Origin: Streptomyces lincolnensis
GTDB lineage: Bacteria; Actinomycetota; Actinomycetes; Streptomycetales; Streptomycetaceae
Assembly (NCBI RefSeq): GCF_001685355.1
Contig: NZ_CP016438.1
Coordinates: 7,192,001-7,256,000, forward strand
Length of the DNA stretch: 64,000 nt
Direction of reading: 5' to 3'
Below the pieces are notes generated by a model, which saw only the letters and a program-made list of their open reading frames with translations, was not told the DNA's origin and did not search any database. Positions 18,166-26,636 of this stretch are shown one piece after another; positions within the stretch are counted from its first letter, which is position 1, and the number at the start of each line of letters is the position of its first letter. Both the position numbers and the translations under genes were made by a program.

Positions 18166-18723
18166 GTGATCGAAGAGACCCTCCTCGAGGCCGAGGAGAA
18201 GATGGAGAAGGCCGTCGTGGTCGCCAAGGAGGACTTCGCCGCGATCCGCACCGGCCGTGCGCACCCGGCGATGTTCAACAAGATCGTGGCCGACTACTAC
18301 GGTGCGCCGACGCCGATCAACCAGCTGGCTTCGTTCTCCGTGCCGGAGCCGCGCATGGCCGTGGTGACCCCGTTCGACAAGAGCGCGCTGCGCAACATCG
18401 AGCAGGCGATCCGCGACTCCGACCTGGGCGTCAACCCCAGCAACGACGGCAACATCATCCGGGTGGTGTTCCCCGAGCTCACCGAGGAGCGCCGCCGCGA
18501 CTACATCAAGGTCGCCAAGGCCAAGGCCGAGGACGCGCGCGTGTCCATCCGCTCGGTCCGCCGCAAGGCCAAGGACGCGATCGACAAGCTGGTCAAGGAC
18601 GGCGAGATCGGTGAGGACGAGGGCCGCCGTGCGGAGAAGGAACTCGACGACGCGACGCACAAGTACGTCGCTCAGGTGGACGAGCTCCTGAAGCACAAGG
18701 AAGCGGAGCTTCTCGAGGTCTGA
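18166..18723 (+). CDS. frr: Ribosome recycling factor
   Basis: RRF splits post-termination ribosomes together with EF-G. From the GTG at 18166, with AGGAG at 18155-18159, the product has 185 residues. It contains [20 protein letters not shown], the hinge region and [20 protein letters not shown], all typical. Its stop TGA overlaps the cdsA ATG by one base, so the two genes are translationally coupled. Confidence 0.96.
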
Positions 18724-19886
18724 TGAACGACTCTTCCTGGGGGGCGCCGCCACAATCCGGGTACTGGGGGCCGTCCGACCAGGGGCCTGTCCAGGGGGCT
18801 GCCCCGGCGGGTCCCGCGTACGATGCGCCCAAGGCGCAGCAGACTCGCCCCATGCCCATCGTGCCCGACGGACCCGCCGTACCCCGATACGGCGACGACC
18901 AGGATGACGACCGGGGGGCCGCTCGGCTGAGCGGCCCCTTGTTCCGAGACGACACGTTCAGAGACGACACGTTCCGCAACGACACCCCGTCGGCGCAGCC
19001 CCGTGCGGCGGCGCCGCAGAATCCGGAGCCCATGCCCGACGCCTCGCAGCCGGCGTCCGCGCCGCAGAAGAAGAGCGCGGGCCGTGATCTGGGTGCGGCC
19101 ATAGGGGTCGGTGTCGGGCTCGGTGCGGTGATCGTCGCTTCGCTCTTCGTCGTCAAGGCCGCGTTCGTCGGCGTGATAACGGTCGCCGTCGTGGTGGGCC
19201 TGTGGGAGCTGACCAAGCGGCTGGAGGAGCGCAAGGGCATCCGGGCGCCGCTCGTGCCGTTGGCGCTCGGCGGTGCGGCGATGATCGTCGCCGGGTACGT
19301 CCGGGGGGCCGAGGGCGCGTGGGTCGCCATGGCGCTCACGGCGCTCGGGGTGCTGGTCTGGCGGATGACGGAACCGCCGGAGGGCTATCTCAAGGACGTC
19401 ACGGCGGGTGTCTTCGCCGCCTTCTACGTCCCGTTCCTGGCCACCTTCGTCGCCATGATGCTCACCGCCGACGACGGGGCGAGCCGCGTTCTGACGTTCC
19501 TGCTCCTCACGGTCGTGAGCGACACGGGCGCGTACGCCGTCGGCTGGCGCTTCGGCAAGCACAAGCTCGCTCCGCGCATCAGCCCCGGCAAGACCCGTGA
19601 GGGGCTGCTCGGCGCGGTGTCGTTCGCCATGGTGGCGGGCGCGCTGTGCATGGAGTTCCTGATCGACGACGGCACGTGGTGGCAGGGCCTGCTCCTGGGC
19701 CTCGCGGTCGCGGCCAGCGCCACGCTCGGTGACCTCGGCGAGTCGATGATCAAGCGGGACCTGGGCATCAAGGACATGGGCACCCTGCTTCCCGGCCACG
19801 GCGGCATCATGGACCGGCTGGACTCGTTGTTGCCTACGGCGCCTGTGGTGTGGCTGTTGCTTGTGGTCTTTGTTGGTTCCGGTTGA
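18723..19886 (+). CDS. cdsA: Phosphatidate cytidylyltransferase, 3' end replaced by a duplicated copy
   Basis: CdsA makes CDP-diacylglycerol from phosphatidate and CTP in the membrane. A disordered N-tail of about 115 residues, typical of Streptomyces, is followed by several membrane segments. The family signature is complete: GDLGESMIKRDLGIKDMG, then LPGHGGIMDRLDSLLPTAPV. The last 26 codons are unusual. They match a second copy 122 bases downstream: 49 bases are identical, and then 30 differ mostly at third positions, with this copy using AT-ended codons (CTT, TTT, GTT, GGT). This looks like a 3' end supplied by an integrated element. The protein itself stays full length (387 residues). Confidence 0.95.
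   Translation: MNDSSWGAPPQSGYWGPSDQGPVQGAAPAGPAYDAPKAQQTRPMPIVPDGPAVPRYGDDQDDDRGAARLSGPLFRDDTFRDDTFRNDTPSAQPRAAAPQNPEPMPDASQPASAPQKKSAGRDLGAAIGVGVGLGAVIVASLFVVKAAFVGVITVAVVVGLWELTKRLEERKGIRAPLVPLALGGAAMIVAGYVRGAEGAWVAMALTALGVLVWRMTEPPEGYLKDVTAGVFAAFYVPFLATFVAMMLTADDGASRVLTFLLLTVVSDTGAYAVGWRFGKHKLAPRISPGKTREGLLGAVSFAMVAGALCMEFLIDDGTWWQGLLLGLAVAASATLGDLGESMIKRDLGIKDMGTLLPGHGGIMDRLDSLLPTAPVVWLLLVVFVGSG
19808..19886 (+). repeat. cdsA 3'-end direct repeat, copy 1 (in the gene)
   Basis: Bases 19808-19856 are identical to 19930-19978 (49 of 49). The 30 bases to the stop codon encode the same peptide as copy 2 apart from one Val/Leu change, but with AT-ended codons foreign to this chromosome. I read this copy as the one brought in on an element's attachment site. 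Confidence 0.85.
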
Positions 19887-19929
19887 CGGGGCCACGGCGC
19901 CGCGCCGCGGTAGCGGCACATGGATACGG

Positions 19930-20008
19930 CATGGACCGGCTGGACTCGTTGTTGCCTACGGCGCCTGTGGTGTGGCTGCTGCTGGTGCTCTTCGTGGGAT
20001 CCGGCTGA
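19930..20008 (+). repeat. cdsA 3'-end direct repeat, copy 2 (displaced original end)
   Basis: This second copy encodes MDRLDSLLPTAPVVWLLL and then VLFVGSG and a stop, with normal high-G+C codons (CTG CTG GTG CTC TTC GTG). It is no longer joined to a cdsA body. Only 43 bases separate it from copy 1, so whatever once lay between has been lost or was never large. Confidence 0.8.
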
Positions 20009-20147
20009 CCGGTCCCGGACACGGTGTGTGCGGCCCCCGTCCTGGTGCAGGGCGGGGGCTCGTTGCCGTGGCTCTCCGGGCGGTCCGGTGGGACGATTTC
20101 CCTGGAGACCCTCGCAGGGGGGATCACCCTGGAAGGGGGCGGGCTTC

Positions 20148-20652: not shown

Positions 20653-20694
20653 GATCTGCGACACTGGTACAGCCATGCCTAAGCCCGGAGAACT
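20653..20694 (+). repeat. attL: left copy of the rlmN 5'-end repeat
   Basis: This copy differs from the right copy at two adjacent bases only (GGTACAGCC here, GGTCTAGCC there). It includes the original rlmN start region (ATG at 20675, encoding MPKPGEL) now followed by element sequence. The former chromosomal rlmN promoter therefore reads into a short dead ORF. Confidence 0.85.
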
Positions 20695-21038
20695 GGCAGC
20701 GGTTTCCATGCGGCAGGCTTCCTACCTGCAGGAATGGCAGGGACGAAGCTGTCGGGATTGGCTCCTGGGCCGTCCCTGGGCCGTCAATCGCTCGCGGCAT
20801 TGGCGAAACGACATACTGAACGCGATCGCCGACATCGCTTCAGATCTCCCAGCAAAGTTTGGGTGGTACCACTTTGAAAAGTGTCGACTGACCAAACTCG
20901 GAACTTTGATGAGACACGAGATTTGCGAACCACCTACCAGTTTTCGTACGTGCCGCTAGGGTGGTACCACCAACGCATCTAAGGATGCGTTTGGGTGGGG
21001 CCAAAGTTGCCTTCCGGGCAGCGGCCTCGAACGTGAGT
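20695..21038. other. Element left end: paired arm repeats, two operator-like palindromes, hairpin, no gene
   Basis: No credible gene lies here. The octamer GGGCCGTC occurs at 20767-20774 and 20778-20785, 11 bases apart. GTGGTACCAC lies at 20863-20872 and the perfect palindrome GGTGGTACCACC at 20960-20971. An 8-bp hairpin (AACGCATC/GATGCGTT, 20972-20991) follows directly. These look like recombinase arm sites and repressor operators whose promoter now serves nothing. Confidence 0.55.
20863..20971. promoter_or_regulatory. Pair of GTGGTACCAC operator-like palindromes
   Basis: Two palindromes, 98 bases centre to centre, share the core GTGGTACCAC; the second extends to twelve bases. The GT...AC ends fit the general form of GntR-family operators. 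The only intact DNA-binding protein of the element is the GntR-type protein at 23724-24191, so it is the natural candidate. Confidence 0.5.
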
Positions 21039-21073
21039 GGGGTCCCCGCTGCCGACTTAGCCTCAGGGACCCC
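21039..21073 (-). terminator. Inverted repeat downstream of the 62-aa gene
   Basis: GGGGTCCC (21039-21046) and GGGACCCC (21066-21073) pair across 19 bases, seven bases beyond the stop codon of the small minus-strand gene. The location fits a terminator, although the loop is long. Confidence 0.35.
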
Positions 21074-21079
21074 GGTGGA

Positions 21080-21268
21080 CTACTGGCCGTGCAGAAGTCG
21101 GGTCAGGAGTGCCGCGATGGTGGCTGCTACCACCGCCACGAGCACTTCCCAGCCCATCCGCTTCGCACGGCCGTAGTTCTGACCGGCACGTGCGAGCGTG
21201 AGCCATCTCCTGACCCACTCGGCGACCGCTGACCGCAGTGCCGCAGCGCGGCGCCATGGAGTGGTCAT
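21080..21268 (-). CDS. Small single-span membrane protein of the element
   Basis: 62 residues from the ATG at 21268. It has a very good ribosome-binding site (AAGGAG, complement of 21275-21280, six bases from the start) and is followed by an inverted repeat. The N-half is basic and amphipathic (TPWRRAAALRSAVAEWVRRW), and the C-half has one membrane segment (VLVAVVAATIAALL). No family is recognised. Small membrane proteins (Spd type) occur in actinomycete conjugative elements, but I see no specific similarity. Confidence 0.55.
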   Translation of the reverse strand: MTTPWRRAAALRSAVAEWVRRWLTLARAGQNYGRAKRMGWEVLVAVVAATIAALLTRLLHGQ

Positions 21269-21476
21269 GTCGTTCTCCTTCCGAACAACGAGCCTGCGCC
21301 GACCACCCGAGCGGATGTCGGTGCGAGCACGGCTCAATCGCCCGCAGGACGGAAGGAGTTCCGACAAACAGCGTCCGCACTGAGTAAATCGGAACTGCAA
21401 GCGCTGCGTGGGCGGAACCCTGAAATCCGGCGAACTCCGTTCTGCTGTCCCGCGCATGAGTTCGGGAGGAGCGGAA

Positions 21477-22395
21477 TTAGCGGTTGCCGGTCGTGCGCAG
21501 AGCAGCGTCGACGGCCTTTCGGGTCCGCTCCTGGCTGGAAGGCATCAGGTGTGCGTACACCCGCAGTGTCAGCGCCGGATCGGTGTGCCCCAGGTATTGG
21601 CTGACGGCCTTGACGTTCCCCCCCCAGCGTCCAGCCGAACTGACGCGTAGAAGTGCCTCAGCGCGTGCATGCCGTGCTCGCGCGCCGACTCGTACTTACC
21701 GTCGCTTCCGGCATCCGAAATGAGGCCAGCCACCGCCAGCGCAGGCTTCCACTCCTGGATGTTGAAGTTGCTGCGCCACACGGCCCCGCTCGCGGCGTTC
21801 GTGAACAGGAGGCGGCCGACACTTTCGGCCCGTCCGGCTTCCGCCACGGCAGCGTGATCTCAACCGGTTTGCAGACGTCCATGTGGGCGCGAAGGGCCAC
21901 CGCGACCGATGACGGCAGCGGTACATCCCGCTCTTTGTTGCACTTCGGCGGGGCGAACACGGCTTTCCCTCGGATGAGCTTCACCTGTCGGACCACCCGC
22001 AGGATGCCGCCCTCGAAGTCGAGCGCGTCCTCAGCGAGTCCCACAATTTCGCCCTGTCGGAGTCCGCATCCCGCTCCCGTGTCCACCATGGTCCGATACC
22101 GCTCGGGGAGCGCCGCGCGGACCGCGTGCACCTGGGTAGGCAGCCATGGCGTGACGCGGCGCTGCTCGGCCGCCGGCGGACGGACGGACTTCGCGGCGCA
22201 CGGGTTCCGGGGCAACAGGCCGTCGTCCACGGCCGCGCTCAGCACAGCACGAACGTCGCCGTAGATGTTGCGCGCGTACGCGCCGCTCACCGCGGGGTCG
22301 GCCTCCAGAGCGCTCGTGAGTTCGCGGATGTGCTCGGGTCGGAACGAGTCCAGCGGTCGGGTGCCGACGACGGGGAACGCGTGCAGGCGCAGCAG
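21477..22395 (-). pseudogene. Tyrosine recombinase (integrase), truncated and twice frameshifted
   Basis: Three reading frames must be joined to make the protein. Reading leftward they are: HIRELTSALEADPAVSGAYA through the Arg box (GAGCGLRQGEIVGLAEDALD); then, after a shift near 21830, FTNAASGAVWRSNFN and the HxxR box (HGMHALRHFYASVRLDAGG); then, after a shift at a run of eight C (21618-21625), AVSQYLGHTDPALTLRVYAH with the active Tyr. The N-terminal arm-binding domain is cut off near 22395, where other sequence begins. It lies close to attL, as expected for the integrase of this element. It is not functional as read. Confidence 0.88.
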
Positions 22396-22406
22396 ACCAC
22401 CGCATC

Positions 22407-22667
22407 ATGGACGGCAAGATCCGCAATGCCCTGATGAACTACCGCCCGCTCTTCACCAGTCACCCCGAGATCGGGTTCCGGTTGCATGACGCGACCCTCT
22501 ACAACTCGCTCTTCCGGGCGGATGACGAGATGTTGGTGAACACCCATGTTTACGGCATCGGCGCGTACCTGGCCCCCGTCCTGCATCTGCGCCGACTGCC
22601 TGGGGGAGGGCTCTTCGACACCTATGCGAATAGCATCGAACAGACCTGGGAGGCGCGCGCCAGGTGA
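22407..22667 (+). pseudogene. 3' fragment of a HTH/DUF5919-type regulator gene
   Basis: An 86-codon frame (FRLHDATLYNSLFRADDEML, NTHVYGIGAYLAPVLHLRR, GGGLFDTYANSIEQTWEA) that I recognise as the C-terminal end of XRE-type regulators with a DUF5919-like domain. These are usually encoded just before a Nudix gene, as here. The DNA-binding N-terminus is missing: its place is taken by the truncated end of the integrase gene on the other strand. The ATG at 22407 is probably internal to the old gene. I infer a deletion at about 22395-22407. Confidence 0.65.
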
Positions 22668-22695
22668 CGGACCACGACATCACGGGAGCTTGAGC

Positions 22696-23169
22696 ATGGG
22701 CCGCATCGACTACCTTCACGACAGCGACGCCCCGCCGGCCAACTCGGTCGTGCCATCCGTCGTGGCGTTCGTCCAGAACGACGTCGGGCAAGTGCTCATG
22801 ATCCAGCGCTAGGACAACGGCCGGTGGGCACTGCCCGGCGGCGGACACGATGTCGGCGAGTCCATCAGCGACACCGTCGTGCGTGAGGTCTGGGAAGAGA
22901 CCGGTATCAAGGCCGAGGTCATCGACATGTCCGGGATCTACACCGACCCCGGGCACGTGATGCTCTACGACGACGGCGAGGCGCGCCAGCAGTTCACTAT
23001 CTGCTTCCGTGCGCGGCCGGTCGGTGGCGACGTCCGCACGAGCAACGAGACGACACAGGTCCGCTGGGTTGCCCCGGCGGACCTGTCGGAACTCGACATC
23101 CACGCGACCATGCGGCTCAGAATCGAGCACGCGATGGACCGGACGCGGTCGGTGCCCTACATCGGCTGA
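22696..23169 (+). pseudogene. Nudix hydrolase with in-frame amber stop
   Basis: The frame from the ATG at 22696 is continuous with a normal Nudix protein of about 157 residues except for a TAG at 22810-22812 (codon 39). After it the Nudix box is perfect (GGGHDVGESISDTVVREVWE, then ETGI). A single-base change from a sense codon would explain it. The pSAM2 immunity protein Pif is a Nudix protein encoded in a similar setting. An internal restart looks unlikely because no ribosome-binding site precedes the Nudix box. It ends 13 bases inside the convergent HD gene. Confidence 0.85.
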
Positions 23170-23727
23170 CGCTTGGCGTCGGCGACCCGCTCAAGCACGC
23201 GCGCCGTGCTTGCAAGGATCTCCGGCTCAGCGCGGCGGATGAACGTACCGATGAGGCTTTCCGGCCCGTAGCGTCCCGCGATCTCGTTCACTCGGTCCAC
23301 GGGGTTCGTAAGCGTGCCGTCCGGCGTCGTGTTCATGTCGCAGTAGCAGAGCGCGTCATTGAGGTCTGCGCTCTCTCGCGGGAACTCGCCCTCCAGCTCT
23401 TCGCGGAGTCCTCGCGCTTCCATCCATCCATGCGCACGAGTGGTGCGCCACCAGGTGCACAAGCCGCTCGTCGGCGCGAGCCACGTCCCGGAGGTACCGG
23501 GCCCCGTCCAGCGGGTGGAAGCCGGTCTTCGCGAGATCGGGCGAGTAGCCGATGTCATGCAGCACCGCGGCTGCCTCCGGCAGCTCGGCGTCGGCACCGA
23601 GGATGGGCGCGATGGTCCGTGCCCTCTCTGCCACCCCCACCGAGTGCTTCCACCTGCGAGGCAGCGGGTCAGCGAGCAACGATTCAGCGAGAGGGTATGC
23701 CCACTCGACCAGTCCCGTGGTGCTCAA
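23157..23727 (-). pseudogene. HD-domain phosphohydrolase, frameshifted by a 4-bp repeat gain
   Basis: Two frames make one HD protein of about 188 residues. The first has HSVGVAERARTIAPILGADA and AAVLHDIGYSPDLAKTG (the HD pair) and VAHHSCAWM; the second has ARGLREELEGEFPRESADLN to the end. The break is at about 23419-23432, where ATGG is present three times on the coding strand. Two copies would restore the frame. The TTG start at 23727 overlaps the stop of the GntR gene, so the two were translationally coupled. Confidence 0.85.
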
Positions 23728-24191
23728 GGTGAGGAACGCTCCTCTCGGTCTGGCAGCGCCAGCACCGTCCGTGGTTTCCCTTGATGACTTGCCGAAAGCA
23801 GTCCGGCAGCTTCCAGCTTGTCCAGGGCCTTGCTCACCGTGGGCCGCGAGCTGTCGAACCGCACGGCCAGCGCGGAAGCGCTGGGGAACAGCGCTCCGAC
23901 CTCAAGTCCGTCAGTCGTGATCACTTCGGCGATCCGGTGCGCCAGGGGACGGCGGTCCTCTCGCCGGTCCGACCTGATCACTCTCCACCGACCACCGGGC
24001 ACCGGCTCTGCGATCCCCTGCTCCTGGAGGGCGTCGAACGTCCGAAGCGCGACGCCCCGCGAGACTCCGTGATCACGCATGAGCTCTGCGGCTGACGGCA
24101 ACTCCGTCATCTCGGGGTCCGACTCGATCTTGGCTCGCACTGCATCCGCGATCTTCAGGAAGGTCCCCCGAGGGCTCACCTGCTGTGACAC
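23724..24191 (-). CDS. GntR-type regulator with two winged-helix DNA-binding domains
   Basis: 155 residues, intact, from a GTG at 24191. It consists of two winged helices: residues about 10-72 (FLKIADAVRAKIESDPEMTE; MRDHGVSRGVALRTFDALQE) and about 82-148 (HRIAEVITTDGLEVGALFPS; FDSSRPTVSKALDKLEAAGL). There is no effector-binding domain. KorSA of pSAM2 is also GntR-type and represses the element's own genes, so this is likely the element's master repressor. Candidate operators are the GTGGTACCAC palindromes at the left end. Confidence 0.88.
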   Translation of the reverse strand: MSQQVSPRGTFLKIADAVRAKIESDPEMTELPSAAELMRDHGVSRGVALRTFDALQEQGIAEPVPGGRWRVIRSDRREDRRPLAHRIAEVITTDGLEVGALFPSASALAVRFDSSRPTVSKALDKLEAAGLLSASHQGKPRTVLALPDREERSSP

Positions 24192-24373
24192 TCACTCTCC
24201 CTCTCCGCCCAGCCTCGTCAGGGTTAAGCCTCCCACGATGACGGCATGCTGCCGATGGCCTGTGACTAGTCGCTGTTCATGGCTCTGTGAGCGTCCTGGG
24301 GTTGGTTCTCAACCGTGGGGGCATGACGTTGAGGCCTCGTGTTTCGTCAGGTGGTCAGCTCCAGAACCTTCCG

Positions 24374-26221
24374 TCATCGCTTCACCCGCCCACGAACGGC
24401 AAGCACAGCGAGACCGAGGAGAATCGGTTCGGAGAAGCGGGAGGCCATTTCAATGTAGTCGCCAGTGGTAGTGAGGTCCTGACCGCTTGAGCGGAAAACT
24501 ACTGAATTGAGGGTGACCTTTAGTGATTTCTCGAACCGTTCGGAAGTGAACCGTTCGCTGCTAGGGTTCTTCGGATCTGTTTTGTCGATTTCGAAAGTGA
24601 CTTTCCCCCCGCTCGACGGGACTATGCCGACAGCCTCCTGTTTTGGCGATTCTTGGGGCAATCCAAATGCCATCATGAGTAAAATTGTGGTCAGCATCGC
24701 TAGGATGAGCCACCCTAGCGCGCGCGACGCACGTAGCCCGTAACCTGATAGAAGCCAGTACAGTTGCAACAGCCAACGCTCAGATGTACTCCATTTGCGA
24801 CTGAGGCGTCTCATCTCCATTTCCCCATAATAGAAGTCTGCGGCGCCGGGCTCATCCTTTGCGTCCTCACGTGACTTCCGTAGTTGCCGATAGATCATTG
24901 CTAATGCGTCGTACTGAGGAACGACTCTATCTATGGGCCCGTCGCCCCAGATGCGGTGGGATGTGCTTCTGCCTGAAAAGGCACGCCGGCGTCGCTCCTC
25001 TTCGATGACTTGGCGGCTCGTGTGACGAAACGGCGGCATCATGGAGAAGCGGCGAGGGCTCCGATTGAAATACCAGCGGCCTTCAAGGCGTAGTTGGTCG
25101 AGATGGATTGCTCCACTGAAGGTGCAGTCCGTAAGTGAAAGGCTCGCGACTGTCAACATTGCACAGTCGACACCTCTGAGTGACGTCAGCGAAGCGATTG
25201 ATGTAATGGAGCCAGTTCTGAAGTCTATGGTCGAAGGTGCGCCAATGACGTCGACTGGCTGATTGAGGACCGCATGTGTCAGGTCTATGCTGGCCCGCGC
25301 CACTTGGACTGAGGCGTGCGCACCGAACAGGGTGTGCCGCATACGTACCCTGCTCGCATCTACGATGAGTAGGACTGGATGCTCGAAATGCGTGTTCGAT
25401 AGATCTAAAAGTTGTTCACAGTAGATTGGGCCGAACCTCGAAATCTCTACGAATCGTGCACCATCGAAAATTGCATCAGTACTCGCTTTGACATCCCGGA
25501 AGTCGGCAGTGCTTGGGAACTCTGATTCGTTGAACTCAACGACATCATTGAAGGTGGCGCCCTTGAATATGGCGGCATTCTGGAAAGTTGCCCTATGGAA
25601 GGATGCTTCTGTGGAAAATTTCGCACCCCCGAAGAGGGCCCAATCCAGGAATTGAACCCCGTCGAAGTTCGCCTTCTTGAAGTGTGTGTCTTGGAAAAAG
25701 GCGTCTTTGGTGAACGTTGCGTTTTCGAAGTTTGCCCAGTCCGAGAATTCTACCCCGTCAAATAAGGCGCTCTCGTGGAACTTGACTTGGTCAAACATTG
25801 CCGAATCCCTGAAGTGGGCTGCGGTGAAATCGACGCCCCCGAGGAACTCGACGTCGTCGAACACGGCCATTCCCTCAAACTCTGAGGCGGCAAACGAGAT
25901 GTGGCTACGGAAGGCTCCCGTCATCCTTATGGCGTTGCCGGTGAACTTGCAGTGATGGAAGCTAGCTTCGGTGTTGCCCATGCTGAGAACGGCAGAGATA
26001 TGCCGGAAAAGATCCGGATCAATCGTCGTTCCTTGATAGCTCACCCTGGGTCGTTCGTGCATGGAATTGAAATGCCTGCCGCGTTCGATTTCTGAAAGAT
26101 GCGAAAGGCATTTCGTGTAAGGCTCGACAACCTCGCCTCGGCACGGAGAATTGCTGTCCGCGTTTTCTTCAGTTTGGGAACACTCGGTCCATTGGCGAGA
26201 CGGCGGCGCGGGGTCGGTCAT
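24374..26221 (-). CDS. Pentapeptide-repeat protein with two C-terminal membrane segments
   Basis: About 615 residues from the ATG at 26221. Residues about 85-265 follow a five-residue periodicity with central Phe ([47 protein letters not shown]), which folds as a right-handed quadrilateral beta-helix. A charged linker follows, then a membrane segment ([20 protein letters not shown]) near residues 495-515, an outer loop and a last hydrophobic segment ([12 protein letters not shown]) before a basic end. The segment-loop-segment plan recalls two-span channel modules, but there is no canonical filter motif. The DNA is close to half G+C, so it was acquired. The start codon is uncertain; the GGTGGAG site is only one or two bases from it. 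Function unknown. Confidence 0.82.
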
Positions 26222-26594
26222 TCTCCACCGGTACCGTACTTGTGGTGCGTCTGTCCGTGACATTGCAATTTTGTGAGCGAACGGGGAGCTCGGCAGGTCA
26301 TCGGCCTCCACGAAGTCCGGCTCGTCATGGCTTGGCCTTTGCGAATCTCGTGCCTCTTCAGGTCCTCCCCACGAGGCCCTCAGGTCGGGTAGCCCGCAGG
26401 TCAGAGGGGAGTGGATCGGTGAGGCCGGTACAGCGGATCCCCGGGTACCGGGTGCGAGATTCTCAGGTCCAGCGTCGTCCCAGGTCACCCGCCTGTTGCC
26501 GGGCCGTCTGTGGGCCGTCCGAGGGGGGCGACGACGACCAACAACGACGGTCAATGACCACCTCCGGAGCCGACGGCCGCAGGTCACACCATTC
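26222..26594. other. Element right end: CAGGTC repeats and paired arm repeats, no gene
   Basis: This 373-base stretch has long open frames on both strands but no recognisable protein. The hexamer CAGGTC occurs seven times in one orientation (26294, 26359, 26381, 26397, 26464, 26481 and 26580). GGGCCGTC occurs at 26501-26508 and 26512-26519, with the same 11-base spacing as at the left end. It probably holds recombinase/excisionase sites, and the promoters of the pentapeptide gene (leftward) and of rlmN (rightward). Confidence 0.5.
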
Positions 26595-26636
26595 GATCTG
26601 CGACACTGGTCTAGCCATGCCTAAGCCCGGAGAACT
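26595..26636 (+). repeat. attR: right copy of the rlmN 5'-end repeat
   Basis: 42 bases, 40 identical to attL. It rebuilds the start of rlmN (ATG at 26617), so the gene keeps its reading frame but takes its promoter region from the element. Confidence 0.85.

Follow-up and report, generated by a model that had tools for sequence, protein, structure and literature searches.

The 3' end of cdsA stands twice in tandem in Streptomyces lincolnensis. How did the second end come to be there? The locus lies in the window, by which we mean the whole stretch of 64,000 nucleotides that was analysed (contig NZ_CP016438.1, positions 7,192,001 to 7,256,000). An earlier note on this DNA regarded the arrangement as the scar of a second integration event: a phage or element would have brought a replacement gene end and later been lost or collapsed. 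We give an even chance to a different reading, in which the window carries one member of a cassette family. These minimal cassettes would have no genes, integrate at specific sites, bring a replacement gene end and depend on a putative enzyme in trans.

Results

The duplicated cdsA end

The features of the locus are as follows.

18723..19886, plus strand: cdsA, phosphatidate cytidylyltransferase, 387 aa (Pfam PF01148 CTP_transf_1, E 8.8e-68), ending in tail copy 1
19809..19886, plus strand: functional end of the gene (tail copy 1); it starts with 48 bp that, like the C in front of them, equal copy 2, and it differs from copy 2 in the last 30 nt
19887..19889, plus strand: three filler bases that separate the stop from the left-arm remnant; in other cdsA units this filler can reach about 70 nt
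19890..19899, plus strand: GGCCACGGCG, left-arm remnant of the second gene fragment, equal to the native bases directly before copy 1 (GGCCACGGCGGCATC, then ATGGACC)
19900..19930, plus strand: 31-nt module CCGCGCCGCGGTAGCGGCACATGGATACGGC, which replaces native GCATC and which other Streptomyces also have at era, tRNA-Lys, LuxR-type and palindrome sites
19904..19917, plus strand: hairpin GCCGC-GGTA-GCGGC inside the module, its middle pair swapping between C-G and G-C across the family
19931..20008, plus strand: tail copy 2, the displaced native cdsA end, running on into native downstream DNA

The two tails (19808-19893 and 19930-20015) align over 86 nt with 90% identity and a start-to-start distance of 122, and their run of identity begins one base ahead of the ATG (19809/19931) and continues for 48 nt from there; the 49 identical bases at an offset of 122 described before were thereby confirmed. 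Both copies encode MDRLDSLLPTAPVVWLLLV[V/L]FVGSG*, a near-identical peptide from differing codons, as had also been claimed. Within the last 30 nt copy 1 is T-rich (TTG CTT .. TTT GTT GGT .. GGT, in a window of 70% GC), whereas copy 2 reads CTG CTG .. TTC GTG GGA .. GGC. This T-richness is not a general property: by eye, L034 and partly L061 share it among the other 13 cdsA units. From the copy 1 stop (ending at 19886) to the copy 2 ATG (19931) there are 44 nt, and the gap of 43 bp given earlier holds if the C at 19930 is counted as repeat. No integrase gene lies between the tail copies (44 nt).

Within the S. lincolnensis genome, a 716-bp query over the site gave a single match and the tail matched these two copies only. 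The module consensus (at most 3 mismatches) was matched once in the window and not at all in 100 shuffles. Weaker module-like places, both with no duplicated flank, lie at about 6104233 (L173, of the palindrome type and located after a gene end) and 4754546 (L175) of contig C1 of this genome.

Recurrence at cdsA across Streptomyces

The spacer, composed of GGCCACGG and the 31-nt hairpin module and followed by a second cdsA tail, was present in 10 of the 392 Streptomyces genomes of our genus draw. The case that had been named as favouring a simple old duplication, a tandem in most Streptomyces, thus does not hold. A draw from the family gave the spacer in 3 of 394 genomes, two of them shared with the genus set; the 16 further genera in this draw did not have it. 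Among the 80 named Streptomyces cdsA loci that were the nearest returned by our search, six have a second tail copy at 120-142 bp, with a spacer conserved between them and the window. At 100 sites, some of them repeated loci, the best spacer matches near the cdsA end fell into two classes with no intermediates, one with 0-4 mismatches out of 41 and one with 14 or more; L034, which has 2 mismatches, was missed by this comparison. The duplication itself is real, but the structure is not a one-off.

We compared 14 distinct cdsA carriers, whose copies are spaced 120-191 bp apart. The left arm starts with GGCCA in 12 of these units and is slightly altered in L034 and L134. L034 also holds a third, decayed cdsA tail, and copy 2 of L115 reads MGR..VV. 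Between cdsA and rlmN, some 100-300 bp after the cdsA core, L066, L071 and L134 contain CCCCGCNGACGCGGGGG sequences, which we take to resemble CRISPR repeats and which are perhaps remnants.

Native flanks and tree placement

When compared with the downstream DNA of relatives that lack the unit, the DNA after copy 2 scored above the shuffle maximum in 12 of 14 carriers (L034 tied with the maximum and L113 fell below it), while no carrier had a native match after copy 1. That is, att-like direct repeats at the gene 3' end with native DNA past the distal repeat were found in 12 of 14 cases. On a tree of the gene part upstream of the tail (119 rows, fifteen redundant loci having been dropped beforehand), the 14 carriers require 13 changes, at least 12 of them forced by well-supported branches. 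Shuffled labels gave a mean of 13.4, and 237 of 500 label shuffles were as low as the observed value; the carriers therefore do not cluster on the cdsA tree. The five tree rows closest to the window (S. canus and others) are without the unit, and the empty site is closely shown by G306 against strain DH5 (L116/L095) and by G549 against CCM_MD2014 (L134/L066). Among the genomes compared we found no empty and occupied pair of strains of one species, which counts against the reading as a cassette.

Given the native flank after copy 2, its absence after copy 1 and the scattered tree, the unit is a 120-191-bp piece in an otherwise native site, and it was gained or lost many times. The earlier view of a replacement gene end in a native site is supported by these flanks and by the nearest relatives without the piece. 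Parsimony itself cannot tell gains from losses, but rarity together with scatter favours gains.

The same module at other gene ends

Tandem ends with the module were also found at era, which NCBIfam identifies as GTPase Era (scores of 346 and 357 bits, cut-off 237). The era end was matched in 186 of 187 genomes, 15 of which had at least two matches: ten short tandems and five with a weak fragment elsewhere. The module was present in eight of the ten genomes with tandem tails. The era loci with the module (L170, L202, L215-L220 and L222) have a copy spacing of 125-191 bp, and G243 carries a two-unit era array (L219) in addition to a cdsA unit (L115). The modules of these two loci differ in their 3' part (GAATCGATACAGC against ATGTCGATGCAGC). 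Tandem era ends without the module occur in G018 and G055 (L213 and L214, spacing 373 and 197 bp), which counts against the reading as a cassette. L213 and L214 share another spacer (GGCCGAGCGGTGCGAGGGCGGC), possibly a second cassette type at era.

Units at tRNA-Lys (anticodon ctt) were found in two genomes (L166, L169) with copy spacings of 191 and 230 bp. Both split the tRNA in the anticodon loop, a usual crossover place for tyrosine integrases, and copy 2 begins there. At a LuxR-type site in G784 (L154/L165), the module lies between duplicated ends with a copy spacing of 188 bp. Here an 84-aa frame fuses copy 1 to a fragment of another gene, with a GerE match below the curated cut-off; because of this fusion no intact target gene is seen at the site, which again counts against a cassette.

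Copy 2 starts directly after the module at cdsA, era and the LuxR-type site, and 15-16 bases later at tRNA-Lys. To the left of the module the bases resemble the native gene, best in L218; thus, copy 2 is a gene fragment in which a few bases were replaced by the module. Outside cdsA and the palindromes, a near-exact duplication straddled 5 of 20 modules against 9 of 1,304 random positions, in sets that consisted of loci returned by the tools and of places picked among the matches listed by a relaxed pattern, G784 and G710 having been re-fetched after the duplication had already been seen there. The link between module and duplication is not chance. In the remaining 15 of the 20 the duplicated flank is absent, a further point against the reading as a cassette. 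L209 shows no duplication. Left out of these counts were L171 and L135/L201, era sites whose second copy is cut or absent, and L168 (G049, contig C1, 3736500-3738700), where the 3' end of an ABC-transporter gene is duplicated and the module lies between the copies in reverse orientation.

These gene ends bear on an alternative that we hold to be unlikely, namely that a 31-nt mobile hairpin first enters the end of a gene on one of the chromosome copies, and that the gene is then restored by unequal exchange with an intact chromosome copy, yielding the tandem. It would explain why native sequence left of the module is kept in copy 2 (61 of 66 nt match the native gene in L218), why by eye the module takes the place of 5-7 native bases, and does so at various sites, why the copies match the host's own codons and why modules without a duplicated flank exist in palindromes; the tRNA-Lys repeat extends past the gene, as this model predicts. 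At cdsA, however, the DNA after the copy 1 stop is not native downstream DNA in any of the 14 units, and the common GGCCA start of the left arm is at odds with independent exchanges, which should differ.

Likeness of the two copies

Over positions 1-58 the cdsA copies are alike within genomes at 54.4 of 58 positions, compared with 49.9 when permuted (none of 20,000 permutations as high), and over positions 59-78 at 16.6 versus 15.5 of 20 (p 2.5e-4). The era copies are alike at 66-69 of 69 positions in seven of nine module loci, and the remaining two score 48 and 54. For 11 loci, including two that lack the module, the means were 64.5 of 69 within and 56.6 between genomes. That the copies share host-specific codons counts against the reading as a cassette: a fresh import should look more foreign, so the reading has to assume that the copies were homogenised later or that a step was templated by the host. 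Most simply, the unit would have inserted and the direct repeats would then have undergone conversion; a host-templated (ends-in) insertion also fits.

Hairpin structure

Stem pair 3 is G-C in 45, C-G in nine and neither in four of 58 distinct modules, that is, it co-varies. Fisher's test on the 57 modules with C or G on both sides gave p 6e-8, a value that is too small, because the modules are related and were found by patterns that fix most of the stem, with pair 3 left free. In single-strand folding, the tRNA-Lys form of the spacer with an outer stem folded somewhat better than its shuffles (z -1.86, 10 of 200 as good). The other four forms (z 0.65, -0.10, 0.26 and -1.15) folded no better than most shuffles. 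Over 11 loci we found no Rfam family covering the module; matches lay over the tRNA only (on its own strand, and below threshold on the opposite one).

An old tandem duplication that was passed down, frequently lost and subject to gene conversion, its spacer being a conserved regulatory or terminator hairpin, could account for the stem co-variation, for copies that are more alike within than between genomes and for the folding of the tRNA-Lys form. We consider it very unlikely in view of the scattered carriers with sisters that lack the unit, the same module at unrelated genes and the unremarkable folding of the other four forms.

Dispersed modules and palindromes

A relaxed module pattern matched up to 25 places per genome (25 in G275, 17 in G758, 15 in G786). 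Its reversed control also matched many genomes, mostly once; single matches are thus often chance, and we relied only on genomes with several copies or on matches inspected in their surroundings. Most of the dispersed modules read in context lie in intergenic palindromes, before CCCGCGCCCC. Within the 80 named loci and the window (1.67 Mb) there was no module inside a palindrome and one plain palindrome. L191 has a plain palindrome copy (AGTTC) together with a module-bearing one; because plain copies are few, chiefly L191, the base for the statement that the module replaces AGTTC is thin.

Two further results count against the reading as a cassette. Only one of 31 modules in palindromes and like sites has a duplicated flank, and in a stricter draw a module not followed by C was found in only 4 of 196 genomes, two of these being cdsA units. 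In one palindrome the copy spacing is 99 bp.

G289 has eight copies of a variant module with loop GCCA (L180-L182, L184, L194-L197), each followed by a GGGAAGGGGCGGG-like sequence. At L177, L183 and L198-L200, apparently one conserved intergenic place in five genomes, a module-like hairpin is flanked by CCGGGGG and ACCCGGG.

Search for a larger element, donor or enzyme

The cdsA tail was matched in 359 of the 392 genomes of the genus draw, with at least two matches in 36 genomes besides S. lincolnensis; re-searching these 36 gave seven tandem tails and 29 short, weak second matches only. This search scored two candidates per genome and is incomplete: it gave eight of the ten spacer carriers as double, showed a single match in G183 and missed G304 altogether. 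Between cdsA tail copies, where the earlier note had suggested looking for full-length elements, no kb-scale element was found in the genomes searched (392 of the genus draw, 394 of the family draw), nor was one found at era in 187 genomes. A 9-kb spacing in G168 (L112) was rejected as an element: the assembly (contamination 6) contains a 9.0-kb stretch twice in tandem, and both rows of copies lie within it. One repeat of the stretch has three tail copies and the second has two, which could reflect assembly, contamination or variation in unit number.

Spacer and module patterns gave no matches in the IMG/VR viral contigs. Similarity searches for a source of the cdsA tail among phages and plasmids returned no match, ordinary cdsA ends or weak matches. 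No autonomous relative, ICE or IME, that shares these att sites was found at cdsA or era in the genomes drawn, or in IMG/VR or the phage and plasmid collections. The genomes and collections searched yielded no recombinase or donor element, which counts against the reading as a cassette. As a candidate mobiliser, the Y1/RAYT transposase appears unlikely, since its presence does not track the modules: of ten genomes that bear modules, seven have PF01797, whereas no match was found in G740, G784 and G739. The literature that we searched, with most subscription journals outside its scope, does not name the module, which does not show that the module is undescribed.

The lost or collapsed element of the earlier note, a larger ICE or phage that inserted at cdsA and lost its middle so that attL and attR were left close together, would provide a replacement gene end and a native right flank. 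CIMEs, elements without their former integration and transfer genes that have kept attL and attR, have been described (PMC5704250). Even so, we judge a collapsed element to be quite unlikely here: units in scattered lineages share one small size (120-191 bp) and one 41-bp spacer, no intermediate or full-size version was seen at cdsA or, in 187 genomes, at era, and the patterns are absent from IMG/VR.

Discussion

A recurring structure with a scattered distribution, native right flanks and the same module at several genes has been observed. The distribution strongly suggests that the units are mobile. In the reading as a cassette, the piece at cdsA would measure about 122 bp and begin with an alternative ending of the gene that reaches to the stop, followed by a short filler, the left-arm remnant and the module abutting the native tail. 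Insertion at the cdsA 3' end would keep the gene whole with the ending of the cassette, and the native ending would be pushed downstream as copy 2, left behind and free to decay, as may be seen in the third tail of L034 and in copy 2 of L115. The era and tRNA-Lys cassettes and the rearranged LuxR-type fragment would use the same module. A putative recombinase, acting in trans or coming with a donor element, would recognise this module, and the copies would have become alike afterwards as the direct repeats recombined. The module may be cut by an integrase, by a HUH enzyme or by nothing at all; we entertain all three.

CIMEs are the nearest known kind. As there, direct repeats of a gene 3' end flank DNA free of integration genes, the upstream copy restores the gene and arrays occur (era in G243). 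CIMEs are kb in size, whereas the units with the module measure 99-230 bp, are gene-less, use one hairpin module across targets and have no autonomous relative that we found. Actinomycete ICEs (AICEs, e.g. pSAM2) and prophages integrate at gene or tRNA 3' ends. The units resemble them in target type, with a split tRNA anticodon loop and protein-gene ends, and in the restored gene end, but they are far too small and are without an integrase, replication or transfer gene. REP elements with RAYT (Y1) transposases and MITE-like repeats are likewise short dispersed hairpins, with many per genome and intergenic palindromes; in contrast to these, the units have gene-end duplications, and in 3 of 10 module-carrying genomes no Y1 transposase was found. 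The layout of integron cassettes with attC hairpins, small units that end in a folded site and are sometimes tandem, is similar, but the units target fixed gene ends.

Tentatively, and with more doubt than confidence, we propose a minimal class of mobile DNA. Its gene-less units, about 100-230 bp long, would each combine an extra 3' end of a conserved gene with a shared 31-nt hairpin read by a putative trans enzyme; they would spread across Streptomyces at several conserved genes and survive because each insertion repairs its gene. If the units move, they would in our judgement be among the smallest integrating DNAs known in bacteria and would form a natural tag set for a putative recombinase in an antibiotic-producing genus. 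The units also indicate that inserts too small to look like elements repeatedly remake the 3' ends of conserved genes (cdsA, era, tRNA-Lys).

The neighbourhood of cdsA holds another insert. At the 5' end of rlmN (window 20653-26636), 5.9 kb are flanked by 42-bp direct repeats (95%). Inside are a pentapeptide-repeat protein and, on the minus strand in seemingly broken frames, a partial match to a tyrosine integrase (PF00589, 27.7 bits). This insert is a separate, conventional integration, and calling the cdsA event a second integration was fair insofar as the two adjoin.
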